This document shows, one piece after another, positions 12,665 through 45,530 of a stretch of 64,000 nt of DNA; position 1 is the stretch's first letter, and every line of letters begins with the position of its first letter. This DNA is from Halorhabdus salina (GTDB lineage: Archaea > Halobacteriota > Halobacteria > Halobacteriales > Haloarculaceae), in assembly GCF_013839425.1 (NCBI RefSeq), contig NZ_JACDNP010000007.1, positions 1-64,000 of the forward strand. The letters run 5' to 3'. Made by a program: the position numbers and the translations under genes. A model generated the notes under the pieces. That model saw only the letters and a list, made by a program, of their open reading frames with translations. It did no database searches and was not told the DNA's origin.

Positions 12665-14856
12665 GCGGGAAAACCTCGAAACGTGCGAAGGCAGCGAAAA
12701 TCCGGGAGATCCTCGACACCGAAGGCGCCGCTATCGAGACCAACACCCAGGGGTTCAACGACGATCGGTACGAGTCGGTCGCCAACCTGGAGAATTACGA
12801 AGCCCTCAAAGACGAGGCACGCGCGATCAAGGAAGACGCCATCGAGAGATTGCCCGAGCTGATCGAGGAACTCACGGCCGCCGTCGAGGCAAACGGCGGC
12901 ACGGTCTATCTTGCCGAAGACGCCGCTGACGCCAACGAATATATCGAATCAATCGCCAAAGACGCCGATGCCGACAGCGTGGCAAAGAGCAAGTCAATGA
13001 CGACGGAGGAACTCGACGTCAACGAACACCTCGAAAGCGCTGGCGTCGACGTCGTCGAAACCGACCTCGGCGAGTGGGTGTTACAGGTGGCTGAGGAAGC
13101 CCCGTCCCACCTTGTTGCCCCCGCGATCCACAAATCACGTGCGGAAATCGCGGACCTGTTCGAGGACCACTTCGATCCCGACGTCCCCCTGGAAACGGCC
13201 GAGGACCTCACGAACTTCGCCCGCGAGCAATTGGCCGACCAGATCGCTGACGCCGACGTGGGCATGACGGGCGCGAACTTTCTGACGGCCGACTCCGGGA
13301 CGATGGCACTCGTGACCAGCGAGGGGAACGCCCGCAAGACCGTCGCCAGCGCGGACACCCACGTCGCGGTGGCCGGCGTCGAAAAGATAATTCCCAGCGT
13401 GGAGGACCTCCAGCCGTTCGTCGAGTTGATAGGGCGCTCTGGAACGGGCCAGGACATCACCTCCTACATTTCGCTGCTGACACCACCGATCGACGCGCCC
13501 ACGTTCAATGGCGACCGCTTGGGCGATCCGGACGACCGCGAGTTCCACCTCGTCCTCGTGGACAACGGCCGCATGGCGATGCGCGAGGACGACGACCTCC
13601 GGGAGACGCTTTACTGTATCCGGTGTTCTGCATGTGCCAATTCGTGTGCCAACTTCCAACAGGTCGGCGGTCACGCCTTCGGCGGGGAGACTTACACCGG
13701 CGGGATCGCCACTGGCTGGGAGGCCGGTATCGGTGGCGAGGAAAGCGCCGAAGAGTTCAACGACCTCTGTACCGGCTGCAGTCGCTGTACTGAAGCCTGT
13801 CCCGTCAAGATAGACATCCCCTGGATCAACACCGTCGTGCGGGATCGACTCAACCGCGGCGAGGATCCGGACACGTTCGATCACCTCGTCACCGGACTGA
13901 CGCCAGACGAGGAACCCGCCGGCCTGGACCTCCAGAAGCGCTTTTTCGGGAATTTCGCCACCGTCGCGACACTCGGCAGCGCGTTCGCCCCGCTGTCGAA
14001 CTGGGCCGCCGCGGCCCCGCCGTCCCGGTGGATTGCCGAGAAACTGCTCGGCGTCGATCGCCGGCGAGAGATGCCGAAATTCACGCGCGGGACGCTCCGC
14101 AAGTGGGCCAAGGGTCGAGAACCGCCAGCAGACCCCGAGCGCGAAGTCGTCCTGCTCGCCGACACCTACACCAACTACATGCACGTCGAGCGGGGCAAAG
14201 CCGCGATCCGGACGCTCGAAGCCCTCGACGTGGAAGTCCACGTCGCGGACGTGACCGAAAGCGGCCGCGCCGCCCTCTCACAGGGCATGATCGAGACGGC
14301 CCGCGAGCACGCCGAAACCGTCGCCGACGCGCTGGAACCCCACCTCGAAGCCGGGCGCGACGTGGTTATGGTCGAGCCGAGCGACCTCGCGATGCTCCGG
14401 AACGATTACCGTCGGTTGCTCCCCGAGGAAGCGTTCGACCGACTTTCGACAAACAGTTACGAGGTCTTGGAGTACGTCTTCGGCCGCCTCGAAAACGGCG
14501 CGGACCTCGACGCGCTTGCCGACGGCGACGGCGAGGAAATCGCCTATCACAGCCACTGTCAGCAACGGACGCTCGGGTTGGCGGCTCACACCGAAGCGAT
14601 CCTCGACGAAGTGGGCTACGACATGGTCACCTCGGAGGTCGAGTGCTGCGGGATGGCCGGCTCCTTTGGCTTCAAACAGCAGTATTACGACGTCAGCATG
14701 GCCGTCGGTGACGACCTCCGCGAACAATTCACCACGCCCGAGACTGAAGATCGGCGGGTCGTGGCGAGTGGCACGTCCTGTCATGACCAACTGACTGATC
14801 TGCTCGATCGACCAGCGACACACCCGGTCGAGTTGATCGCGCCCGAGGAGGAGTAA
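12661..14856 (+). CDS. LutB-LutA fusion: LUD, 4Fe-4S and CCG-domain protein
   Basis: The 731-residue protein joins functions that are separate in bacteria. The N-terminal 300 residues are a LUD domain. Two 4Fe-4S clusters follow at about 320-390, with CIRCSACANSC and CTGCSRCTEACP. The C-terminal part has cysteine-rich CCG elements typical of heterodisulfide-reductase-like LutA, with HSHCQQRT, VECCGMAGSFG and SGTSCHDQL at about 640-715. The whole resembles a single-chain LutAB that would pass electrons from lactate to the respiratory chain, together with LutC encoded just upstream. It is cytoplasmic or membrane-associated; no membrane segment is seen. Confidence 0.85.
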   Translation: MSGKTSKRAKAAKIREILDTEGAAIETNTQGFNDDRYESVANLENYEALKDEARAIKEDAIERLPELIEELTAAVEANGGTVYLAEDAADANEYIESIAKDADADSVAKSKSMTTEELDVNEHLESAGVDVVETDLGEWVLQVAEEAPSHLVAPAIHKSRAEIADLFEDHFDPDVPLETAEDLTNFAREQLADQIADADVGMTGANFLTADSGTMALVTSEGNARKTVASADTHVAVAGVEKIIPSVEDLQPFVELIGRSGTGQDITSYISLLTPPIDAPTFNGDRLGDPDDREFHLVLVDNGRMAMREDDDLRETLYCIRCSACANSCANFQQVGGHAFGGETYTGGIATGWEAGIGGEESAEEFNDLCTGCSRCTEACPVKIDIPWINTVVRDRLNRGEDPDTFDHLVTGLTPDEEPAGLDLQKRFFGNFATVATLGSAFAPLSNWAAAAPPSRWIAEKLLGVDRRREMPKFTRGTLRKWAKGREPPADPEREVVLLADTYTNYMHVERGKAAIRTLEALDVEVHVADVTESGRAALSQGMIETAREHAETVADALEPHLEAGRDVVMVEPSDLAMLRNDYRRLLPEEAFDRLSTNSYEVLEYVFGRLENGADLDALADGDGEEIAYHSHCQQRTLGLAAHTEAILDEVGYDMVTSEVECCGMAGSFGFKQQYYDVSMAVGDDLREQFTTPETEDRRVVASGTSCHDQLTDLLDRPATHPVELIAPEEE

Positions 14857-14870
14857 GCGTCCGCGAAAGC

Positions 14871-15479
14871 TCAGTCCAGATCCCGAAGCGACACCACAAG
14901 TCGCTGGATCGCGGTGAAGTGACCGACGACGGCGAAGACGACGAGCAACCAGCCGACGACCGAAAGGCCACGGATTGGCTCGCCGTACACGAACGCCACG
15001 ACGCCAACAACCCCGGTGAGTGCGAGGCGATCAGCCCGACCCAAGAGACCGCCATAAACCCGGTCAAGTCCGACTGCCTGGGCCTGGGTTCCCAAGTAGG
15101 ATGTCATCAACACGCCCGTGATCGCTGCGACACCGAGATCCCAGCGGTCGATGCCCCCAGCTAGCCCGACGAGGACGAGCAAGTCAGCATAGCGATCGAA
15201 GACGTGATCGAGCAGGTCACCGGCCGCCGATTCGGTTCCCAGTTCCCGAGCGATTGCACCGTCAAGCAGATCGAGCAGGCCGTTGAGAAACACCAGGAAT
15301 GCGCCCGCGAGATACCAGCTCGGCGCAGATGGGCCGAAGTAGAACGCGACGGCGGCCCCACCGGCGACGAGCAGTGCTACGACGCTGACGGCGTTCGGCG
15401 TGAGCCCGAGCCGAACGCTCACTGCGACGAACGGGTCGAGCAGTCGGTCCGTGAGTGGACGGAGCCGATCGAGCGTCAT
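14871..15479 (-). CDS. CDP-alcohol phosphatidyltransferase family protein
   Basis: The 202-residue membrane enzyme has the family motif D-x2-D-G-x2-A-R-x8-G-x3-D-x3-D at about residues 68-92 (LLDLLDGAIAR through DLLDHVFD). It also has five or six hydrophobic segments. Such enzymes move a phospho-alcohol from a CDP-lipid to an acceptor such as glycerol phosphate, serine or inositol phosphate; here the lipid would be CDP-archaeol. The acceptor cannot be told from the sequence. The start overlaps the stop of the adenylate-kinase-like gene by four bases, and that gene similarly overlaps hisC, so the three form one operon. Confidence 0.85.
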   Translation of the reverse strand: MTLDRLRPLTDRLLDPFVAVSVRLGLTPNAVSVVALLVAGGAAVAFYFGPSAPSWYLAGAFLVFLNGLLDLLDGAIARELGTESAAGDLLDHVFDRYADLLVLVGLAGGIDRWDLGVAAITGVLMTSYLGTQAQAVGLDRVYGGLLGRADRLALTGVVGVVAFVYGEPIRGLSVVGWLLVVFAVVGHFTAIQRLVVSLRDLD

Positions 15480-15982
15480 AGGTAGTCGATGTAGGATACC
15501 GCCCCGGCCCCTGGCTTGCGATCCCCGTCGATGACGGCTTCGATCTCGGTGGCGACCGCCTCAGGCGAGCGATCGGTCGTCTCGATCTCGTAGACTGATT
15601 CGCCGCCGTGCTCCTCGATCGCCTCGACGAGAATGACGTCCAGGGCCTCACTCTCGGCGTTTTCCTGTGCGCTTTCTTCGCTCTCGCCGCGGTCGCTCAG
15701 TCGCTGTTCGATCGTCTCGGGATGACAGCGGAGGACGATCACGCGATCGACTGGAAGGTGATGGGCGAGGTGAGATTCGACGACGACATCGTCGCGCCCG
15801 TCGAACCAGTCCCGGACGGCGTCGAGATCGGCGATCGTCGAATCGCGTTCGTCGTCGACGCCCTGTGAAAGCCCTTCCTGCGTGATGACTTCGTTGAGAT
15901 GAACGACATCCAGATCCCGTTCCAGACGGTCCGTTGCGCTCGTTTTGCCAGTGCCGGGCGTCCCAGTGACGGCGACCCTCAC
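15476..15982 (-). CDS. Adenylate kinase family protein (Fap7/AK6-like)
   Basis: The 168-residue protein has a P-loop GTPGTGKT at about 7-14, the NMP-binding region DVVHLNEVI and a lid-like stretch rich in Arg, Glu and Ser. It matches the short archaeal AK6/Fap7-type kinases, which phosphorylate nucleoside monophosphates and also help mature the small ribosomal subunit. It is the middle gene of a run with four-base overlaps at both ends (15476-15479 and 15979-15982). The link to phospholipid and histidine genes may reflect shared transcription, not a shared pathway. Confidence 0.8.
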   Translation of the reverse strand: MRVAVTGTPGTGKTSATDRLERDLDVVHLNEVITQEGLSQGVDDERDSTIADLDAVRDWFDGRDDVVVESHLAHHLPVDRVIVLRCHPETIEQRLSDRGESEESAQENAESEALDVILVEAIEEHGGESVYEIETTDRSPEAVATEIEAVIDGDRKPGAGAVSYIDYL

Positions 15983-17052
15983 GAATCGAGCACCTCGTTG
16001 ATGGTTTCGACCGCCGTCTTCGTCTCCGCACGGGTCCCACAGGTGATCCGGACGTGTTCGGGCAGACCGAAGCTCGAACAGTCCCGGACGATCACGCCCC
16101 GCTCTTTGCTCTCCTGGGCGACGCGCGTCGCGTCACCGACCTCCGCGAGAACGAAGTTTCCGCCGCTCTCGTAGGTCCTCGCGTCGAGATTGTCCTGATA
16201 GTATTCGCGACTCCACTCGACAAGGTCCCGGATCTTCTGGATGTGTTCCTCGTCGTCCAGTGCGGCCAATCCGGCCCGGCAAGCGAGCTCACTCGCCGAG
16301 AAGGGCGTGTTGATTCGCTCGTAGGCATCGGCCCACTCCGTGGGCGTGATGGCGTACCCGAGTCGAAGGCCGGCGAGACCATACGCTTTCGAGAACGTGC
16401 GGATGACCGCGACGTCATCGCGCTGTCTAACAAGTTCAACGGCACTCGGACGGTCGGCGAACTCGTTGTAGGCCTCGTCGACGACCACGAGCGTCTCCTC
16501 GTCGGTCCGGTCGGCGATTGCTTCGATCTCGTCGAGAGAAACCTGCGATCCCGTGGGATTGTGCGGGCTCGTCAGGTAGACTATTCGCTCGCCGTCGTAG
16601 CCATCGAGGACGCGATCGGGTGACTGGTGGAAGCCGTCGTCGGCCACGAGCGGATAGGTGTGGACCTCGCCGTGGTGATACCGGGCGCTCATCGAGTGAT
16701 AAGTAAAGTCCGGGTCGGGGACCAGTGCGGCTTGCCCGGGGTCAAGCATCGCGCGGGAAAGGGCGTCCATCGCACCGTCGCCCCCGTTTGCCGGCCAGAT
16801 CTGGGCCGGGTCGACGTCCCAGCGGTCGGCCAGCCGCTCGACGAGATCAGCGTGGGAGGCTTTCGGATAGGCGTGAATCCGTTCGGCGTGCTCGCGGATC
16901 GCTTCAACAGCCTTTGGACTCGGGCCGATGGCGTTCTCGTTCGAAGAGAGTTTGATCAGGTCGTCGGGGTCGACGCCGAGTTCGCGGGCGGTCTCTTCGA
17001 TCCCGCGCCCGGCACGATAGACAGTGTGGGAAGAGAGGTCCCGTGGGTTCAT
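15979..17052 (-). CDS. hisC: Histidinol-phosphate aminotransferase
   Basis: The 357-residue PLP enzyme makes histidinol phosphate in histidine synthesis. Visible are LSSNENAIGPSP near the N-terminus, the substrate region DPDFTYHS, the SPHNPTG motif, the PLP-contacting DEAYNEF, and FSKAYGLAGLRLGY with the Schiff-base Lys near residue 220. The frame runs to 17283, but the ATG at 17052 starts MNPRDLSSHTVYRAGRGI as usual for haloarchaeal HisC. It heads the three-gene run with the kinase and the CDP-alcohol transferase. Confidence 0.92.
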   Translation of the reverse strand: MNPRDLSSHTVYRAGRGIEETARELGVDPDDLIKLSSNENAIGPSPKAVEAIREHAERIHAYPKASHADLVERLADRWDVDPAQIWPANGGDGAMDALSRAMLDPGQAALVPDPDFTYHSMSARYHHGEVHTYPLVADDGFHQSPDRVLDGYDGERIVYLTSPHNPTGSQVSLDEIEAIADRTDEETLVVVDEAYNEFADRPSAVELVRQRDDVAVIRTFSKAYGLAGLRLGYAITPTEWADAYERINTPFSASELACRAGLAALDDEEHIQKIRDLVEWSREYYQDNLDARTYESGGNFVLAEVGDATRVAQESKERGVIVRDCSSFGLPEHVRITCGTRAETKTAVETINEVLDS

Positions 17053-17131
17053 ACCCGAAGGGTGGGGGGCGGGCACTCTTAAGCGTGCATACCTGTCGCT
17101 ACGGGGCGTTCGAATCGGGAAAACAGGCCAC

Positions 17132-18343
17132 TCAGGCGAACGTCTTCGAAACTTCGTCGTCTTCCTCTTCGGCCTGGATCTTCTCCCAGGCGTCGACGAA
17201 GTCGGCCTCGGTGACCTCAGTCCGGTCGTCGCGGATGGCGAGCATCCCAGCCTCGGTACAGATCGCCTTGACGTCGGCCCCACTGGCCTCCGTCGCTTCT
17301 TCAGCCAGGCGAGCGAAGTCGACGTCTTCGGCGAGGTTCATCTCGCGGGTGTGGATCTCGAAGATCTGCTCGCGGCCCTCGATTTCCGGCTTTGGCACCT
17401 CGATGAGGCGGTCGAAGCGACCGGGCCGGAGGATGGCGCGGTCGAGCATGTCAAAGCGGTTGGTGGCGGCGATGATGCGGATCTCCCCGCGGTCGTCAAA
17501 GCCGTCCATCTCCGAAAGGAGTTGCATCATCGTCCGCTGAACCTCGGCGTCGCCGCTGGTCTTTGAGTCCGTTCGCTTCGAGGCGATCGCGTCGATCTCG
17601 TCGATGAAGATCACGGCGGGTTCGTGCTGGCGTGCGAGTTCGAAGAGATCGCGGACGAGTTTCGCGCCCTCGCCGATGAACTTGTGGACCAGTTCCGAGC
17701 CAGCCATCTTGATGAAGGTGGCGTCGGTCTCGTTGGCGACGGCTTTCGCCAGCATCGTTTTCCCGGTCCCTGGCGGGCCGTGCAGCAGGACACCACTGGG
17801 CGGATCGATACCAACCTCGTCGAACATGCCGGGATTCTTCATGGGCATCTCGACGGTCTCGCGAACTTCCGAAACCTGGTCGTCAAGCCCACCGATGTCC
17901 TGGTAGGTCACCTGTGGGCTCTGATCGACCTGCATCACGCGAGCACGAACGTCCGTCTCGTCGTCAAGCGTCTTGACGATCGACAGCGAGTTGTTGACCG
18001 CGACACGTTCGTCGGGTTCGATGTCCTCGCGCATTTCGTCGGTGACTTCGGTGAGGGCTTCCTGGTTGTTCCCGTGCTGTTTGATGATGACGCCCTCGTC
18101 AGTTAGCTCTTGGACCGTTGCCACGAACAGCGGGGACTGCTTGAGCTTCTTGTTCTCGTGGTTGAGGCGTTCGAGTTTCTGCTGGTACTTGTTGTTCTCG
18201 GCATTGGCATCCAGCAGCTTGTCCCGCATCTCCTCGTTTTGGTCCTCGAGGATGTCGAGTTGTTCTTCGAGCGCTTCGAGTTTCTCCTGTTGGGACGCGT
18301 CTTCGTCGTACGGTTGCTCGACGTCGTCCACCGTATCCGTCAT
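17132..18343 (-). CDS. pan: Proteasome-activating nucleotidase (PAN)
   Basis: The 403-residue AAA ATPase unfolds proteins and feeds them to the 20S proteasome. An N-terminal coiled coil (about 15-75) is followed by the OB ring domain and the AAA module with Walker A GPPGTGKT, Walker B VIFIDEID and the second-region ATNRFD. The arginine-finger segment is RPGRFDR. The last residues are Thr-Phe-Ala, so a textbook HbYX tail (hydrophobic, Tyr, any) is not visible; Phe may stand in for Tyr. The gene is upstream of hisC, with 79 bases between. Confidence 0.93.
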   Translation of the reverse strand: MTDTVDDVEQPYDEDASQQEKLEALEEQLDILEDQNEEMRDKLLDANAENNKYQQKLERLNHENKKLKQSPLFVATVQELTDEGVIIKQHGNNQEALTEVTDEMREDIEPDERVAVNNSLSIVKTLDDETDVRARVMQVDQSPQVTYQDIGGLDDQVSEVRETVEMPMKNPGMFDEVGIDPPSGVLLHGPPGTGKTMLAKAVANETDATFIKMAGSELVHKFIGEGAKLVRDLFELARQHEPAVIFIDEIDAIASKRTDSKTSGDAEVQRTMMQLLSEMDGFDDRGEIRIIAATNRFDMLDRAILRPGRFDRLIEVPKPEIEGREQIFEIHTREMNLAEDVDFARLAEEATEASGADVKAICTEAGMLAIRDDRTEVTEADFVDAWEKIQAEEEDDEVSKTFA

Positions 18344-18499
18344 TGAACGTCCCTAGCGGGTCTGCCAACAAGAGGCTTCGGGTCACGACGAATACTCGCC
18401 CAATCCGGCAGTTGAGGCAAATCCTGACCGTTCTTCGACTTGATCGACAGGGCAGGTGACATGGGTAGAGAATAACCAAAAGTTATAATTAGAGATAGT

Positions 18500-18508
18500 A
18501 AATATTAT
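18500..18508 (+). promoter_or_regulatory. TATA element upstream of the HTH gene and mre11
   Basis: An A/T-rich AAATATTAT in a strongly AT-rich stretch, centred about 32 bases before the ATG at 18537. It implies a very short leader for the HTH gene and perhaps the mre11-rad50 genes. Confidence 0.5.
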
Positions 18509-18536
18509 CACCCTGTATCAGTTACGACGGAGTACG

Positions 18537-18803
18537 ATGAGCGTCACGGAGTCACCACAGGTCGAGCCAGCACAGGACCCCGGTTGGGAAGCCGTCGAAG
18601 AGCTGCCACCGAGTGCGAAACTCGTCGCCAAGTCCCTCGAATACAACGACAGCTTGACCCAGAGCCAACTCGCCGACGAGACGCTGTTGCCGGCCCGGAC
18701 GGTTCGGTACGCGCTAAATCGCCTCGAAGACGTCGGCGTCGTCGACTCGCGGTTCTCGTTTGCCGACGCCCGCAAGCGCGTCTACACCCTGTCGATCGAG
18801 TGA
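18537..18803 (+). CDS. Small winged-helix DNA-binding protein
   Basis: The 88-residue protein is almost wholly a MarR/TrmB-type winged helix. ELPPSAKLVAKSLEYN leads into the recognition region (SQLADETLLPARTVRYALNRLED), and a short wing ends in RVYTLSIE. A regulator-like role is likely, but no ligand domain is present. It lies 71 bases upstream of mre11 on the same strand, and the same neighbours occur in other haloarchaea as I recall, so it may serve as a regulator of the repair genes. Confidence 0.8.
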   Translation: MSVTESPQVEPAQDPGWEAVEELPPSAKLVAKSLEYNDSLTQSQLADETLLPARTVRYALNRLEDVGVVDSRFSFADARKRVYTLSIE

Positions 18804-18874
18804 TCGCGGGCTCGTCGTCCACTTTCACCCACCTCGCGGAACGTCTTTAGGACCCGGTCGCGTAGCCGCCGGCA

Positions 18875-20341
18875 ATGACGCAGGTGATACACACCGGCGA
18901 CACTCACCTTGGCTATCGGCAGTACCATTCCGCCGAGCGCCAGTCGGACTTCCTGGATGGGTTTCGAACGGTCACGACCGACGCTATCGAGTCGGATGTC
19001 GACGCCGTTGTTCACGCCGGCGACCTCTTTCACGATCGGCGACCCAGACTGCAAGACATCATGGGAGCGATGTCGATCCTCCGTGACCTTGCTGACGCGG
19101 AGATTCCGTTCCTGGCCGTCGTCGGCAATCACGAAGGGAAACGCGACGCCCAGTGGCTCGATCTGTTCGAGTCACTCGACCTGGCGACGCGACTCGACGC
19201 GACGCCGACCGTGATCGGCGATACCGCCTTCTACGGGCTGGACTTCGTTGCGCGCGCCCAGCGAGACGCCTATCAGTACGACTTCGAACCACACGACGCC
19301 GACCACGCGGCTCTCGTCTCACACGGCCTGTTCGAACCGTTCGACCACGGCGACTGGGACGCCCGCGAAATTCTCAGTGAGTCCGACGTCGCGTTCGACG
19401 TGATGTTGCTCGGTGATGACCACACCCCGGCCAAGCGCGAGGTTGAGGGCACGTGGCTCACCTACTGTGGCTCGACCGAGCGGGCGAGCGCGGACGAGCG
19501 AGAGGCACGCGGGTACAACATCGTCACGTTCGACGACGAGGTGGATATTCGACGTCGATCCATCGAGACCCGCGAGTTCGTCTTCGTTGACGTCGAACTC
19601 GCCGAGGGAGAAGGGGGAAAACGAGTGCGCGAACGAGTCGGCCAGCACGACCTGACGGACGCCGTCGTCATCGTCACGATCGAGGGCGAGGGCGAGCCAG
19701 TGCCGCCGGCCGGGATCGAGGAGTTCGCCCGCGATCGCGGGGCCCTGATCGCCCGCGTCAACGATCGCCGGGAGATCGACGAGGAATCAGCCTACCAGGT
19801 GAGTTTCGCCGATCCAGACGACGCCGTCCACGAACGTATCCAGCAACTCGGCCTCAGTCCCGCCGCCCAGGAACTCGACGAGGTCGTCCGGGCGAGCAAG
19901 GTCGCCGACTCGAACGTCGACGATTCCGTCCAGGGCCGCGTTCGCGAACTGGTAACGGACGCCGACGCCGACACTTTCGAGCCGGCCCCGCCCGAGGCTA
20001 ATTCTGACAAGCAACAGACCGAGGAATCCCAGGACGACACCGACGAGAACGATGTCGACCCAACGGGCGTGGCCGACGAAAGCCCCGTCGACTCAGCTGG
20101 CCCGGCTGAGGAAGATTCCGAGACACAACGTCACGACGACGATTCCAAGACACAACGTCACGACGACGATTCCAAGACACAGCCTCACGACGACGATTCC
20201 GAGACGCAGCCAAACGACGACGATGCCAAAGACGCTGGCGTCAGCGACGACTCGTCCGGCACTGACGAAGCTGCTCCCGGAGACCAGTCCCACCCTGACG
20301 GGGACGGCGAGGATCAGGCCACGATGGAGGAGTACCTATGA
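18875..20341 (+). CDS. mre11: DNA double-strand break repair protein Mre11
   Basis: The 488-residue Mn-dependent nuclease trims DNA ends together with Rad50. Phosphoesterase motifs are visible in order: DTHLGY (about 9-14), [17 protein letters not shown], the LVSHG segment and the GDDHTP loop. After about residue 365 a long acidic, disordered tail carries four 9-residue repeats (20114-20221). The very last residues, QATMEEYL, match a PCNA-interacting pattern (Gln, Met at +3, Tyr at +6). The gene overlaps rad50 by four bases. A CTTTAG element about 28 bases before the ATG can act as its own promoter. Confidence 0.92.
20114..20221 (+). repeat. Four tandem 27-base repeats in the mre11 tail
   Basis: Four copies encode a 9-residue unit of the type DSETQRHDD, with changes E/K, R/P and H/N between copies. 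They sit in the acidic linker between the nuclease and the C-terminal peptide. Copies differ at few positions, which suggests recent expansion. Confidence 0.85.
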
Positions 20342-37306: not shown

Positions 37307-37750
37307 CTACGGACCGTCCGCACCCGTCCAGCTGTCGAGTACCGCTGTCCCGTTCGCTGTTGCGTTCCACCAGACGAGATCTATCTCATCGTTCGCCCCT
37401 ATCGGTGCGCCGTAGGCCCCACCTTGGGCGACCTGTACAATGTCTCCTTCTTGTATCATTCTCGATTCGTTCCATCCTGCGAGGGCCGCCCACGTCACGT
37501 TCCCATCTTGCCCTTCGACGTAGACGTCCGCGGCCCGAATACTATCGCCCGTCTCGTGTGTCACAATCAATGCGCTGCTCTGCTCGACATACCGGAAGGT
37601 AAAGTTAGCACTGGGGGCACCGGAATCACTGGGCGCGAGCAAGAACACGTTCAGTCCCATCCCGACGACGAGTAACAGCGCCATGGCAACGAGCGTGGCG
37701 ACGGCCATCATCTCAGAGACAGCGCGGTCATCGGGTTCGGACGCGGCCAT
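37307..37750 (-). CDS. Archaeal type IV pilin-like protein
   Basis: The 147-residue protein has a class III signal: charged DDRA before VSEMMAVATLV and a hydrophobic helix (about 10-35) that would build the pilus core. Cleavage by the prepilin peptidase is expected between Ala and Val. The mature part is rich in beta-type sequence and has Asn-X-Ser/Thr sites (NFT, NVT, NES, NAT, NGT) for N-glycosylation. It is probably a minor pilin or adhesion protein. No pilus assembly ATPase gene lies nearby. Confidence 0.82.
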   Translation of the reverse strand: MAASEPDDRAVSEMMAVATLVAMALLLVVGMGLNVFLLAPSDSGAPSANFTFRYVEQSSALIVTHETGDSIRAADVYVEGQDGNVTWAALAGWNESRMIQEGDIVQVAQGGAYGAPIGANDEIDLVWWNATANGTAVLDSWTGADGP

Positions 37751-39511: not shown

Positions 39512-40093
39512 ATGAGCGCACCACCGGGAGAATACTACACAGAAGAACGCTGGAAAAACTGGATCGAGCGCATCGAAGCTGAGAGCATCGATCCCGAAGA
39601 AGAAGACTCTGCCCGCCTATTGTTGAATCTCCAGGATGACGCCGCGATCGCCGTCGCCAAGATCGTCACCGACTACGAGGACGACGAACTCGACACCGAG
39701 GCAGCCCTCGAAGAACTCGCGTCCGTCCGCGACATCGTTCTCAAAGAGGTCGAAATGGACGACGAAGAGAAACTGATGGTCGTCGACGGCGTCCAGACGT
39801 CGCTGGTCTGTGTCTTCTATGCAGCCGAGGAGTATGTTGCCGGTGATGTCGCTGAGGCACCGGTTGACAACCTGATCGAAGCAGCGGGAGACGCCGAAGC
39901 GAACGAAGATATGGACGCCGCGCTCGGCTACTGTGTGCAGGCCGGGACACGTATATTCGCCGACGAAGACGAGTTGTCGATGGATATCGTCGACGAACTC
40001 GAGTTCGGACTCGTCGCTGAGTGGGTCAACGGCCTCGACAGTCTGCAGACGGCCTTGAGTGACCCGGAAGTCGTCGAAGAAGACGACGCCTGA
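39512..40093 (+). CDS. DUF2150 haloarchaeal protein
   Basis: The 193-residue, very acidic helical protein starts MSAPPGEYYTEERWKNWI and matches DUF2150, a family of archaeal proteins of unknown function. No enzyme motif or membrane segment is seen. A TATA-like CATAACC with a CGAAAG BRE lies about 26 bases before the ATG. The next gene starts 62 bases downstream with its own promoter, so it is probably transcribed alone. Confidence 0.85.
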   Translation: MSAPPGEYYTEERWKNWIERIEAESIDPEEEDSARLLLNLQDDAAIAVAKIVTDYEDDELDTEAALEELASVRDIVLKEVEMDDEEKLMVVDGVQTSLVCVFYAAEEYVAGDVAEAPVDNLIEAAGDAEANEDMDAALGYCVQAGTRIFADEDELSMDIVDELEFGLVAEWVNGLDSLQTALSDPEVVEEDDA

Positions 40094-40125: not shown

Positions 40126-40131
40126 TTTTTA
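40126..40131 (+). promoter_or_regulatory. TATA element of the large pilin-like operon
   Basis: TTTTTA centred 27 bases upstream of the ATG at 40156. It should drive both large pilin-like genes as a leaderless transcript. Confidence 0.55.
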
Positions 40132-40155
40132 TCGACGACGACGAAAGGTAACGCA

Positions 40156-42234
40156 ATGTCGTTCCGGGACGACGAGCGCGCCCAAGCAATTCAGATAGGG
40201 GCCGTGCTACTGTTTGCTGTGCTCATAATCGCGTTCTCGCTCTTTCAGGCGTTTGTCGTCCCAAACCAGAACGAACAGGTCGAGGCCAATCACCTGCAGA
40301 CGGTCGCCGGTGATATGCAAGATCTACGGAATTCGATCGTCTCAGTACCGAAGACGGGCGAGGGACGATCGGTCGGCATTGCCCTGGGGACCAGCTATCC
40401 AGCGCGACTGGTCGCGTTGAATCCCCCACCGCCAGGTGGGCGCCTGCGTACAGTCGGGACGGGCGAGGAGGCGATCAATCTGACAGTCGCCAATGCACGC
40501 GCAACCGATGAGGAGACGAACGATTACTGGACCGGAGCGAACCAGACCCGGTATTCAGGAGCGATCGGGTACACGCCGGACTACAGCGAATTTACTGATC
40601 CGCCCACGATCGGCTACGATACCACGGCACTGTTCCGGCAATTCGACGACGCAAGCTTGTGGACATCGGGACAGCAACTCGTCGATGGCCGGAAGATTAC
40701 CCTCGTCGCGATCGAGGGGTCGTACGACCGGCGGTCGAGTCAGTCGGTGTCGCTCGATCTGGAAGCACTCAGTGCCTCCCAGACCGACGTAGCGATCACC
40801 AACGAGACCGACGAGAACGTTACTATCCAGTTCGCGTCGATGCGAAACGCCAGTGACTGGCGGTCGCTATTGCGTGACTCCGATCAGTTCGTCGACCAGA
40901 GCGGATACGTCGTCAGCGTCGATGGGACCCCGCTGGCCGAGGAATCGTTCGATCTCGTCTCGATCGAATTCGAACAATCGGAGACGTACACGCTTCGGAT
41001 GGCGAAAGTAGGCGTCGGAACGAATACCGAGTCGGAATCGGCCAGATATATCACAGATATCGCCGGTGACGGCGGGTCGATGCAAGAAAAAAGTGAACGA
41101 TCGGTGGTCGTCGAAGCACGTGACAAGTTCAACAATCCTGTCTCGGGGGTAGAACTGTTTGCAAGCGTCGAATCCGGCCCTGAGAACGGAAGCCTGGCCA
41201 ATTCGACGGTGAATACAGACGAAGATGGCAGAGCTGAGTTTCGGTATCTGGCCGAAGACATTGCAGGGCAAGCCAGTCGAAACATCCGGATCAACGTGAG
41301 CCTCGATGGGCAGCCAACCAGTGCATTCGATCCGAGAGGTCCTGAGAATGTCTCGGTGACCGTTACCGTCCAGAACACCGACGGGAGTGGGCTGGACACA
41401 GGGGGCGGGAACGGGACTGGGGCGTACGTAGTCGACTGGGTGAGCAGTCAAAGTCCGGTCAAATGCCCGAATGAGCTGGATGAGGTCTGTACATTCGATG
41501 CCAGTCAATCTTCGACGGGAGCAGTGACGATGGGAACCGATCCAATCGCCCAAGGGGCAACTGTGGAGTACGCACTCAACGACACGTCAATTGTTTCGTT
41601 ATCGCGTTCTACCGGAGTGACAGATTCAAACGGCAAAAATTCGACGGAATTTCAAGCACTGGACAATGGATTTGTCAAAGCGTACACGTCGAGTGGGTCG
41701 AGTGGAGACACGTTGGTCTTGGAAGTTATCAATGCACTCGGCCTCATCTATAATGGCGATGCAGCAGCTGTGGACGGAGACGACACACCAAACCCGGACA
41801 GAGCTGGGGGCGTTGAATTCAGCGTAACAAATGAATATGGGTCAGCTGTTACTATCGATTCGATCACGATTGATCCGGTGAATGATAACATAGTAGAACT
41901 CAGTGATGATCTACTTAACTCACCGAACCCACAAGATGTGGAAGTATACATTGCCGCTGATACCGATGCTTACACCGATTATGGTGGAGGCGTTGCAATT
42001 CCAGCTGATGGATTAACAGTTGACGTTGGCGAAGGTGGCAGGTACAACAGTGGAACTGAGGCAGTGATCAACGCTGGTAACTCAGCTACTATCTCATTTT
42101 ATGAGTTTTACGTTGCTTCCGGTGGCTCTGGAAATACACAAAACCAGAACATGACTGGTGAGCAGCTGAATATCACAATCACGTACACCGTTGATGGGAC
42201 TCAAGTCACGGAAGAGTTCACGTTCACGGCCTAG
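40156..42234 (+). CDS. Large pilin-like surface protein with Ig-like domain
   Basis: The 692-residue protein starts with a class III-like signal (DDERAQAIQIGAVLL), and a hydrophobic helix to about residue 35. Cleavage before Gln would leave a pilin-type N-terminus. The outer part is rich in beta strands and Asn-X-Ser/Thr sites. At about 310-400 EARDKFNNPVSGVELFASVESG with NTDEDGRAEFRY is a bacterial-Ig-like (Big_1) module. A second similar module may follow near 470. The last 200 codons are noticeably AT-richer. A secreted adhesion or cell-surface role is likely; no anchor is seen at the C-terminus. The next gene begins two bases after the stop. Confidence 0.78.
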   Translation: MSFRDDERAQAIQIGAVLLFAVLIIAFSLFQAFVVPNQNEQVEANHLQTVAGDMQDLRNSIVSVPKTGEGRSVGIALGTSYPARLVALNPPPPGGRLRTVGTGEEAINLTVANARATDEETNDYWTGANQTRYSGAIGYTPDYSEFTDPPTIGYDTTALFRQFDDASLWTSGQQLVDGRKITLVAIEGSYDRRSSQSVSLDLEALSASQTDVAITNETDENVTIQFASMRNASDWRSLLRDSDQFVDQSGYVVSVDGTPLAEESFDLVSIEFEQSETYTLRMAKVGVGTNTESESARYITDIAGDGGSMQEKSERSVVVEARDKFNNPVSGVELFASVESGPENGSLANSTVNTDEDGRAEFRYLAEDIAGQASRNIRINVSLDGQPTSAFDPRGPENVSVTVTVQNTDGSGLDTGGGNGTGAYVVDWVSSQSPVKCPNELDEVCTFDASQSSTGAVTMGTDPIAQGATVEYALNDTSIVSLSRSTGVTDSNGKNSTEFQALDNGFVKAYTSSGSSGDTLVLEVINALGLIYNGDAAAVDGDDTPNPDRAGGVEFSVTNEYGSAVTIDSITIDPVNDNIVELSDDLLNSPNPQDVEVYIAADTDAYTDYGGGVAIPADGLTVDVGEGGRYNSGTEAVINAGNSATISFYEFYVASGGSGNTQNQNMTGEQLNITITYTVDGTQVTEEFTFTA

Positions 42235-42236
42235 TG

Positions 42237-44105
42237 ATGACCCACTCCGCACAAATTGAAAAAAGAAACAGTGACGTCGACCCTCCGAAACGAGGTCAAT
42301 CAGAGGTCATCGGCGTCATTCTCCTGACGGCAGTCATCGTCATCCTATCGGCACTCGTTGGCGTCGTCATCTTGGGCACCGTCGATACGACCGACGAACC
42401 GGTCCTCGATATTGATATCGAGGTCTCCGGTACCGGTATCGAAGTGATTCACAAAGGCGGAGACACAGTCGCGATCGAGGAGTTACAACTACTCATCCGC
42501 GATGGGAGTGGTGAACGGAGGGTAACTCTGGATAGCGATGCTGTGTCGGGGAATGACGACAGCGAGTTCAGTCCAGGTGAGAGATACATCCATCAGCAAC
42601 GATTGACGGGCGAGACGGTCCAAGTACTCGTCGTTCACGAGCAGACGAACACTGTCTTGGTCGATCAGGCGTTCGATATACCAGCAGTCCCCGGGCCGCT
42701 AGCATCGCTAACGTACAGTCCACAAGATGTCGAGCCAGGTGAAACGGTGACGTTCAACGCGAGCGGATCGATTGCAAACCAATCCATCGCTCGCTACGAG
42801 TGGGCGTTCGGAGACGGGACGACACTGAACACGACCGATCCGAGCATAAACCACACCTACACGAACACTAGCGATTACGAGGTCACGCTTACCGTCGTCG
42901 ACAGTGATGGCCGGGAAGACACCACGTCGTTGACGATCACTATCGACTACCTACGTGCACCCGACAATCCCGAATCGACAGAGGCCGGTGTGCAGTACGA
43001 GTATTACGAGGCAGCTGATTACACGAGTATGCCGGACTTCGAAGCTGAATCACCGGTGCGGACGGGAGAGACAGACCAGATCGATCTCGACCCCGCCCAC
43101 CGGGAAGACAACTTCGCGTTCCGTTTCACTGGCTACGTCGAAGTTCCTTCGAACGGAACGTACACGTTCTCGACCCGATCAGATGACGGGAGTTATCTGT
43201 ATATCGGGGATCAACAAATCGTCGATAACGGCGGCGAACACGGCAACCGAACCCGAAGTGGATCTATCAATCTCTCCGCGGGTAAACACGCAATTACGGT
43301 GACGTACTTCGAAAACGAGATAGACGAGGGGCTGACTGTAAACTGGTCTGGCCCGGGCGTCAATGCTGGCGAAATCCCCGCAAGCGCTCTGTTCCGAACG
43401 CCTGCTCCGAGCGTAAATTTCGACACCGATTGTGTGGGACTCACGTGCACTTTTAACGCAAGCAAGACGACTGCTGACGGCTCGATCTCCGAATACGAGT
43501 GGGCCTTCGGCGACGGGAATACGACTACGACATCGAACCCCACAGTCGAGTATACCTACGGGTCAAATGGAACCTATCCTGTGACGCTCACTGTCACAGA
43601 CGATGCGGGTCGATCAGACTCGATGCAAACCTCCGTTGCAGTCCTCGATCTCCTCCCTGCACTTTCACCAGGAACGGGTGACAACGGCGTTGAGTACCAA
43701 TATTACGAAGCGTCGAGTATTACCTCACTCGATAGTGTGAATTGGTCCGCGGCCGATCGAAACGGGGACAATGAAAGTATTGATCTTGAACCATCCCATC
43801 GTGAAGACAACTTTGCGTTCAGATATCAGACGTATCTCAACGTCTCAAAGACAGACACGTATATATTCAACACAAGTTCCGACGATGGGAGTCGTCTCTA
43901 CGTCGACGGAAAACTGGTCGTCGACAACGGCGGACTCCATCCAGAAGAGACGGCAAGCGGACGAGTGGCTCTCGAAAGCGGATACCACAACGTAACGGTG
44001 GTTTACTTCGAACATACGGGAGTCCAGTCACTTGCCGTCGGTTTTGGCAACGAAACGAGTGGCCCAGAACCGATCCCGCCAAGCCGACTCTATCGACCAA
44101 AGTAG
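42237..44105 (+). CDS. Pilin-like protein with two PKD-PA14 modules
   Basis: The 622-residue protein has a pilin signal (KRGQSEVIGVILL) and helix at about 20-50. Two copies of a two-domain unit follow. Each PKD domain has YEWAFGDG (about 205 and 420) and each PA14-like domain has YYEA and HREDNFAFR, then a SDDGS loop and VDNGG. PA14 domains bind sugars in many adhesins; PKD domains usually act as spacers. The pattern suggests a pilus- or membrane-attached glycan-binding protein outside the cell. GTG at 42234 is an alternative start that overlaps the upstream stop. N-glycosylation sites are frequent. Confidence 0.82.
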   Translation: MTHSAQIEKRNSDVDPPKRGQSEVIGVILLTAVIVILSALVGVVILGTVDTTDEPVLDIDIEVSGTGIEVIHKGGDTVAIEELQLLIRDGSGERRVTLDSDAVSGNDDSEFSPGERYIHQQRLTGETVQVLVVHEQTNTVLVDQAFDIPAVPGPLASLTYSPQDVEPGETVTFNASGSIANQSIARYEWAFGDGTTLNTTDPSINHTYTNTSDYEVTLTVVDSDGREDTTSLTITIDYLRAPDNPESTEAGVQYEYYEAADYTSMPDFEAESPVRTGETDQIDLDPAHREDNFAFRFTGYVEVPSNGTYTFSTRSDDGSYLYIGDQQIVDNGGEHGNRTRSGSINLSAGKHAITVTYFENEIDEGLTVNWSGPGVNAGEIPASALFRTPAPSVNFDTDCVGLTCTFNASKTTADGSISEYEWAFGDGNTTTTSNPTVEYTYGSNGTYPVTLTVTDDAGRSDSMQTSVAVLDLLPALSPGTGDNGVEYQYYEASSITSLDSVNWSAADRNGDNESIDLEPSHREDNFAFRYQTYLNVSKTDTYIFNTSSDDGSRLYVDGKLVVDNGGLHPEETASGRVALESGYHNVTVVYFEHTGVQSLAVGFGNETSGPEPIPPSRLYRPK

Positions 44106-44195: not shown

Positions 44196-45530
44196 ATGAC
44201 AACCGCCGGCATCGACGCCGTCGAGATCCGTACCGGGAATCTCAAACTCGATCTCGCGGAGACGTTCGCGCCCGCAAAGGACGAAGATCCTGCCAAATAC
44301 ACGAAAGGGCTCGGATTGCATGCCAGTTCGTTCCCCGACGCCTACGAGGACATCGTCACGATGGGGGCAAACGCGGCCAAGCGGCTGATGGACCGAAAGG
44401 GCCTCGAACCCGACGACATCGGCCGAATCGACGTCGCCACCGAGAGCGCGTTCGATCACTCAAAGCCGGTGTCGACGTACATCGCCGGCTGTCTGGAAGA
44501 TGTCTTCGAGGACGACTTCCATCACGCGAACAAGGGCGAGCGGAAGTTCGCCTGTCTGGCTGGGACCCAGGCGATCGACGACGCCGTCAACTGGGTCACG
44601 TCCGGGAAGAACCGGGGCCGGGCGGCACTCGTCATCGCAACGGACACGGCGCTGTACGAACGTGGAGATTCCGGTGAGGCCACGCAGGGCGCCGGTGCGG
44701 TCGCCATGCTGATCGACGAGGATCCCGATCTCACAATCGTCGAACCCCTCCAGGGCTTTGGGAGTGCCGACGAGACGGACTTTCTCAAGCCCAACCAGCA
44801 GTTCCCAAGCGTCGACGGCAAACGTTCGATGCAGGTCTATCTCGCCCGGATGCGAGAGGCACTCCGCGATCTCGAAGAACAACGGGATCTCCACCCCGAT
44901 GACTTCGCTGTCGTGCCGTTCCATATTCCGTTCCCGGGGATGGTCCGGAAAGGTGCTGCGCTCGGGTATCGACACATTTCCCGCGGGACGGACGTCGAAG
45001 ACGCGCTGGCTGAAGAAATCGGGCCACAGCCTCGACCTGAGGACTTCGAGGACGACGACGCGTTCCGAGATGCCCTCTCGGAGTACACCGACGGTCTGAC
45101 CGAGACCGATCTGTACCAGGAGTGGTACGATCTGACGGTCGAGCCAACGCTCGGTATCTCCCGGTACGTCGGCAACTGGTACACCGGATCGGTCCACCTC
45201 GCCCGGGCGTCCGCACTCCGGGAGGCCCGTGAGAACGGCCGTGCCCTGGACGAAAAGCAGCTGCTGGTCTGTTCATATGGCAGTGGCGCACAGGCCGAAG
45301 TCCACATCGAAACCGTCCAGCCTGGGTGGGAGGAAGAGATCGCCCAGCTCAACGTCGATGAGCAGCTGCGTGAGCGCTACGACCTGAGTTTCACCGAGTA
45401 CGAACAGATCCACGACGTCCACAACTACGACGAAAGCACCGATATCGACGCCTTCACCACGCCCGAAGAAGAGTTCGTCTTCGACGGTTGGGGTCGCATG
45501 GGCGAGCGCAAGTACACGTACGTCGAGTAA
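44196..45530 (+). CDS. hmgB: Hydroxymethylglutaryl-CoA synthase
   Basis: The 444-residue thiolase-fold enzyme condenses acetyl-CoA with acetoacetyl-CoA, the first committed step of the mevalonate route to archaeal lipids. The nucleophilic Cys lies in FACLAGTQA near residue 118, the Glu-rich start is IDVATESAFDHSKP and the His is in PFHIPFPGMVRK near 245. The C-terminal VCSYGSGAQAE region completes the fold. A CATAAG element lies about 30 bases before the ATG. The neighbouring gene on the other strand is a regulator often found beside it as I recall. Confidence 0.93.
   Translation: MTTAGIDAVEIRTGNLKLDLAETFAPAKDEDPAKYTKGLGLHASSFPDAYEDIVTMGANAAKRLMDRKGLEPDDIGRIDVATESAFDHSKPVSTYIAGCLEDVFEDDFHHANKGERKFACLAGTQAIDDAVNWVTSGKNRGRAALVIATDTALYERGDSGEATQGAGAVAMLIDEDPDLTIVEPLQGFGSADETDFLKPNQQFPSVDGKRSMQVYLARMREALRDLEEQRDLHPDDFAVVPFHIPFPGMVRKGAALGYRHISRGTDVEDALAEEIGPQPRPEDFEDDDAFRDALSEYTDGLTETDLYQEWYDLTVEPTLGISRYVGNWYTGSVHLARASALREARENGRALDEKQLLVCSYGSGAQAEVHIETVQPGWEEEIAQLNVDEQLRERYDLSFTEYEQIHDVHNYDESTDIDAFTTPEEEFVFDGWGRMGERKYTYVE

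Follow-up and report, generated by a model that had tools for sequence, protein, structure and literature searches.

What kind of surface structure is encoded by two adjacent genes whose large products both carry pilin-type signals, one of them extended by repeated PKD and PA14 domains, at a place in the genome where no pilus machinery is encoded? This question is raised by two open reading frames (ORFs) of Halorhabdus salina, here named P1 (ORF1; 40156..42234, 692 amino acids, aa) and P2 (ORF2; 42237..44105, 622 aa), which lie within a 64,000-nucleotide (nt) stretch of DNA (contig NZ_JACDNP010000007.1, positions 1 to 64,000). Throughout, "the window" denotes this whole stretch and not the P1/P2 pair, and features lie on the forward strand unless otherwise stated. 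The reading that we favor, at a probability of about 0.6, is that P1 and P2 are a haloarchaeal modular (minor) type IV pilin pair whose glycan-binding modules can be exchanged and would serve adhesion or cell recognition.

Two adjacent genes for pilin-type proteins

P2 is built as Pilin_N + PKD + PA14 + PKD + PA14. Its predicted leader peptide (aa 1-20, 42237..42296) ends in a class III signal, PPKRG followed by QSEVIGVILLTAVIVILSALVG, with cleavage expected between KRG and QSEV, and both the archaellin/pilin N-terminal model TIGR02537 (32.1 bits, cut-off 20) and Pilin_N (47.9 bits, cut-off 25.2) recognize the protein. The pilin part, comprising a helix (aa 22-47) and a beta domain (aa 57-147; 42300..42677), is followed by PKD domain 1 (aa 158-230, 42708..42926; PF00801/PF18911), PA14 domain 1 (aa 251-381, 42987..43379; PF07691, 76.5 bits), PKD domain 2 (aa 390-466, 43404..43634; PF18911), and PA14 domain 2 (43686..44069; PF07691, 64.5 bits), the two PKD-PA14 units being identical at 99 of 232 residues. 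The original prediction had posited two such units, and the profile search agrees, matching PKD_4 (E=1.7e-37) and PA14 (E=4.1e-38) at two stretches each. An AlphaFold2 (AF2) model with a mean predicted local distance difference test (pLDDT) score of 86.7 likewise displays the helix at 22-47, the beta domain, and four beta modules. When the model was submitted to Foldseek, the PA14 dyads 6qe7/6qdi emerged as the closest PDB folds and the sugar-bound MpPA14 lectin 6x7j was also matched, so that the modules are PA14-like in predicted structure as well; only domain-level matches were counted, the whole-chain template modeling (TM) scores being low because the domains float in the model. Chance or misread domains in P2 can thus be ruled out, since PKD and PA14 score far over their cut-offs and the AF2 model agrees.

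P1, whose relatives are found across the class, was modeled with a mean pLDDT of 87.8. Its predicted leader peptide (40156..40182) reads MSFRDDERA followed by QAIQIGAVLLFAVLIIAFSLF, cleavage falling before QAIQ, and a recognizable R-[GA]-x-[AST] cleavage site is kept in 42 of 43 P1 relatives. A long N-terminal helix (pilin alpha1; aa 7-67, 40174..40356) supplies, together with helix 22-47 of P2, the N-terminal hydrophobic helix of an archaeal type IV pilin in both AF2 models. Further along lies a Big_1-like immunoglobulin (Ig) domain (aa 315-363, 41098..41244; Pfam E=3.8e-4, under the curated cut-off) that is missing from the original prediction; Big_1 is matched at E<=0.001 by 30 of 44 P1 proteins, and Foldseek with the P1 model returned generic Ig-stack matches only. 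A low-confidence linker (aa 414-421, 41395..41418) then leads into a variable C-terminal region (aa 421-692, 41416..42231; GC content at third codon positions, GC3, of 0.43-0.55).

The two genes are separated by a two-base gap, since P1 ends at 42234 and P2 starts with the ATG at 42237; an alternative GTG at 42234 overlaps the P1 stop codon. This spacing, and the pilin-type signals on both proteins, had been claimed from the outset, and coordinates and motifs agree. Judged from sequence, the pilin signals and PKD/PA14 domains of the pair are far beyond chance. A TATA-like box (TTTTTAT, 40126..40132) is situated 27-30 nt 5' of the P1 start codon, a distance at which a T-rich TATA-like box is kept in most sampled P1 loci, and suggests a leaderless transcript starting P1-P2. 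The proteins also contain N-glycosylation sequons, 14 in P1 and 18 in P2, and may themselves be glycosylated.

Does P2 have the residues of a sugar-binding site? PKD domains commonly act as spacers, and some PA14 domains take part in protein contacts; PA14 is not confined to lectins. Accordingly, PKD and PA14 might be structural spacers or protein binders only, devoid of lectin activity. Two sets of findings make this quite improbable. First, Asp316-Asp317 (43182..43187) and Asp549-Asp550 (43881..43886), one pair in each PA14 copy, fall on Asp136-137 of MhPA14 in an alignment with 6m8m that concerns residues only; in MhPA14, a Ca2+-dependent lectin, this D-cis-D pair is the Ca2+/sugar-binding site (PMC6650083). 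The motif SDDG is present in 16 of 16 haloarchaeal PA14 domains on pilin-type proteins and in 0 of 10 rows of an enzyme-type PA14 clade, three rows of which are confirmed as glycoside hydrolase family 3. In the PA14 tree the enzyme-type clade is split off at 100/99 support, and the two window domains take no firm placement. Second, as described below, PA14 alternates with LamG and malectin modules across species. The PA14 domains of P2 are thus predicted to be Ca2+-dependent sugar binders. The Asp-Asp pair also occurs in both domains of a two-PA14 protein encoded among small membrane proteins elsewhere (L223:9188-10852, reverse strand), which has no recognizable pilin signal.

One conserved locus with differing tails

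Is the pair an oddity of one species? Relatives of P1 were found in 336 of 391 genomes and 74 of 86 genera of the class. Besides the window, 63 P1 loci were compared, 43 taken from the best family matches or PA14 matches and 20 from four other families, with genes called by a simple codon-usage caller; the loci were chosen non-randomly, and the fractions that follow are therefore not population estimates. In the window, P1 and P2 are flanked upstream by a gene for a DUF2150 protein (39512..40093; PF09920, E=5.6e-63) and downstream by one for HMG-CoA synthase (44196..45530; NF041302 equivalog). Within three genes of P1, the DUF2150 gene is present at all 63 loci, nearly always directly adjoining, and the HMG-CoA synthase gene at 54. 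P1 itself ranges from 397 to 1340 aa among the loci compared. A P2 partner, upstream or downstream of P1, accompanies it at 27 of the 43 loci of the first group and at two of the 20 of the second; all 28 P2 proteins scanned together, that of the window included, match Pilin_N, opposite-strand Pilin_N-like matches at L196 and L199 having been left out of the set. The order DUF2150 - P1 - (P2) - HMG-CoA synthase marks a locus that belongs to the haloarchaeal core. A PA14-pilin system peculiar to H. salina is consequently ruled out, the same locus being present in most haloarchaea and proteins with Pilin_N and PA14-PKD-PA14 being encoded also in four genomes of family f3 (L212-L215), where they occupy another conserved site, close to a purF-like gene. 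The window encodes one further, separate Pilin_N protein of 147 aa (37307-37750, reverse strand), which adjoins an MscS-like gene and is conserved in the genus.

What the conserved locus carries at its C-terminal ends differs from species to species. The P2 tail of the window species has two PA14 domains, the only strong PA14 match within the genus. In three congeners, including the closest one (L172), the tail is instead Laminin_G_3, a ConA-like/LamG lectin module (L172, E=2e-16; L175, E=2e-21; L173, E=1e-20), and in L181, from another genus, it is malectin (E=1e-30). Elsewhere P2 tails consist of one to five PKD domains, or of CARDB in L204, and in six genomes of families f2 and f4 (L216-L221) it is the P1 tail of this locus that bears PA14. 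At L173 (10589-11957), P2 is a 155-aa pilin, and its LamG tail follows out of frame; this frameshift may be genuine, through phase variation or decay, or may be a sequencing error. Neither the conserved locus nor its variable tails figured in the original account of the pair. The same locus with different predicted sugar-binding tails looks like an exchangeable sugar-recognition device.

How do the tails come to differ? Between the window and L172, neighboring genes diverge at synonymous sites (dS) by 0.36-0.64. Within P1, dS is 1.0 for codons 1-70, 0.4-0.7 for codons 71-420, and above 2 or saturated from codon 421 onward, and the N-terminal part of P2 stands at about 1.9. A second close pair, L178 vs L182, has neighbors at dS 0.09-0.25 and P1 codons 1-350 at 87-99% identity, falling to 26-35% after about codon 420, and P2 lengths of 137 vs 556 aa. 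In both pairs the abrupt break near codons 400-420 falls at the inter-domain linker 414-421; in a control pair, L197 vs L198, the tails are similar throughout. Fast point mutation alone was rejected as the source of this divergence because synonymous sites jump together with amino acids at the same boundary, and block replacement of the tails by recombination is the simplest account of these sequence patterns. In line with such replacement, P1 and P2 have the lowest GC3 among the 46 window genes tested (0.60; mean 0.75, standard deviation 0.05).

Where very close species share conserved flanks, such sharp tail replacement could also mean that the tails vary mainly as an escape from viruses or competitors using P1/P2 as receptors, with sugar binding incidental. 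In keeping with this too, the GC3 of the P1/P2 block is low, and viruses have been linked to haloarchaeal surface diversity (PMC5867893). Yet this one position is held in turn by three unrelated carbohydrate-binding folds, and every pilin-borne PA14 retains the Asp-Asp site, a pattern that suggests selected binding; escape as the main driver is accordingly held to be very unlikely.

Pilus machinery and related systems

If P1 and P2 are pilins, what assembles them? The genome encodes one PibD-type prepilin peptidase (Peptidase_A24 + Arc_PepC_II), PilB3- and PilB4-type ATPases, and archaellum genes. PilB-family ATPase genes are distributed over contigs C1, C5, C19, and C21, and the P1/P2 pair is on C23; on the window's contig there are no peptidase, PilB-type ATPase, or archaellum genes, so that P1/P2 must be served in trans, as proposed for other haloarchaeal pilins (Makarova et al. 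2016, PMC4858521). A PilB4/PilC4-type locus of the same genome (L246, G000:C19:208000-227000, at 13078-18926) contains DUF7288, DUF7261, DUF7266(+PKD), and DUF7289 genes. Also encoded there is a DUF7289 + vWA protein, a candidate for another modular pilin, with vWA as in PilB of S. sanguinis. The large pilins linked to PilB4/PilC4 are encoded beside PilB and PilC, a placement that the P1/P2 pair does not share.

The absence of pilus machinery from the locus is compatible with a different function, in which P1/P2 are membrane- or S-layer-held sugar-capture proteins, the pilin signal being only an anchor and the lectin arms holding polysaccharide for feeding. We know of no description of tail swapping among the bindosome proteins of Sulfolobus, sugar-binding proteins that offer the precedent for class III signals in such a role. 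The nearest PDB sequences to the PA14 domains of P2 are the PA14 dyads of RsgI3 and of a C. clariflavum homologue, both surface proteins of the anti-sigma-factor type, which also speaks for this alternative. However, within the window the pair has no ABC transporter or sugar-use genes beside it, the pilin-like helix of P1 is 61 residues long, and PA14, LamG, and malectin are not ABC-type solute-binding folds. The bindosome proteins, in which pilin-type signals are processed by PibD (PMC4187195), are by contrast ABC-type solute-binding proteins with dedicated Bas machinery. Sugar capture is thus unlikely.

Several findings weigh against the modular pilin reading itself. Many P1 loci lack P2, P2 is tailless in about a dozen relatives, and there are PKD-only tails and unnamed P1 tails without a known sugar-binding module. 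P1 scores under the cut-offs of both Pilin_N (16.4 bits vs a curated 25.2) and DUF7289, and in a search of the organism's own genome no PilB or PilC gene was found at the P1/P2 locus. The second Ca2+ loop, whose ligands in MhPA14 are Asp181, Gly183, and Ala185, differs as well: P2 has Glu (YFEN, YFEH) in place of Asp181 and the remainder differs, so the P2 site is similar, not identical, to that of MhPA14.

How do these proteins compare with systems already described? Modular pilins are known from bacteria, with PA14 among their common predicted architectures (Raynaud et al. 2021, PMC8179133), and PilC of S. sanguinis, with Ig-like and ConA-like lectin modules, is a proven lectin pilin, its companion PilB carrying vWA (PMC9934059). 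As in these proteins, P2 has a class III signal and a pilin part followed by a domain that is not pilus-specific (Pilin_N + PKD + PA14). It departs from them in the haloarchaeal Pilin_N, the tandem PKD-PA14 arrangement, the pairing with P1, and a lectin that varies by species at one fixed core locus. The survey of Raynaud et al. used the N-terminal motif IPR012902; P2 instead matches archaeal Pilin_N, and no bacterial N-methylation motif appears in the Pfam output for the pair. The PA14 fold and aligned Asp-Asp pair of P2, a likeness drawn from sequence and model, recall the lectins MhPA14 and MpPA14 (PMC6650083, PMC8092209), which sit on type I secreted RTX adhesins and from which P2 departs in the second Ca2+ loop.

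Among archaea, the VARTIG system of Thermococcales has recombining Ig tails, for which its authors found no counterpart outside Thermococcales (Makarova et al. 2021, PMC8416519); its hallmark is an arCOG07710 protein at least 1000 aa long with variable genes downstream. P1 is similarly a large surface protein with an Ig domain and a C-terminal part variable through recombination. It is set apart by length and gene content, having only 692 aa and only P2 before HMG-CoA synthase, and at the P1 locus generally there is at most one partner pilin gene where VARTIG has downstream variable genes; also foreign to VARTIG are the pilin-type signals, the lectin tails, and the single fixed locus between housekeeping genes. 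The P1/P2 pair thus resembles VARTIG in variability but is not VARTIG. The Ups pili of Sulfolobales likewise have pilin regions that differ between species, as do P1/P2, and mediate species-specific recognition proposed to involve S-layer glycan patterns (van Wolferen et al. 2020, PMC7064770). UpsA, however, is small and encoded with its own machinery, whereas P1 and P2 are large, modular, and encoded alone.

The original prediction had proposed a PA14-bearing pilin as a new type within an undescribed system. A new type it is not, because PA14 is already among the bacterial modular-pilin architectures, and the four f3 genomes with Pilin_N + PA14-PKD-PA14 proteins also count against the claim. 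The exchange of lectin tails at one fixed core locus does appear to be undescribed: a literature search, with most subscription journals outside its scope, found no paper on the P1/P2 pair, none joining PA14 domain, archaea, and pilin, and none naming DUF7289.

A proposed mechanism and its meaning

From the computed anatomy, synteny, tail exchange, and conserved Asp-Asp pair, we infer a course of processing, filament assembly, sugar binding, and biological role. P1 and P2, which are probably minor pilins, would be made as prepilins and cut by the genome's PibD peptidase, and their N-terminal helices would hold or assemble them via a PilB/PilC machine encoded elsewhere. The PKD-PA14-PKD-PA14 arm of P2 would reach outward and bind glycan with its PA14 domains, via Ca2+ held by the Asp-Asp pair; P1 would present its Ig-like domains and, at the tip, a variable part. 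Recombination at the fixed locus would exchange C-terminal modules (PA14, ConA/LamG, malectin, PKD arrays, or none) between lineages, and module exchange would retarget adhesion or cell recognition.

More tentatively, and with less confidence than doubt, the locus may be a core haloarchaeal recognition locus where homologous recombination from time to time fits a new lectin head to a conserved pilin pair, such that lineages recognize different S-layer or biofilm-matrix glycans and choose aggregation or mating partners. If so, it would correspond, within archaea, to VARTIG and to the self-recognition of Ups pili, with exchangeable lectins as its working parts. The binding targets and partner discrimination of haloarchaea are poorly known, and a pilin pair that most haloarchaea keep at one locus, with tips that change between unrelated lectin folds, would offer a delimited set of naturally occurring variants in which specificity for glycans could be tested, along with adhesion, preference in mating, and sensitivity to viruses. 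The finding would also carry modular lectin pilins into the archaea, and would supply a case in Halobacteria of the recombining surface modules that the 2021 survey found only in Thermococcales (PMC8416519).

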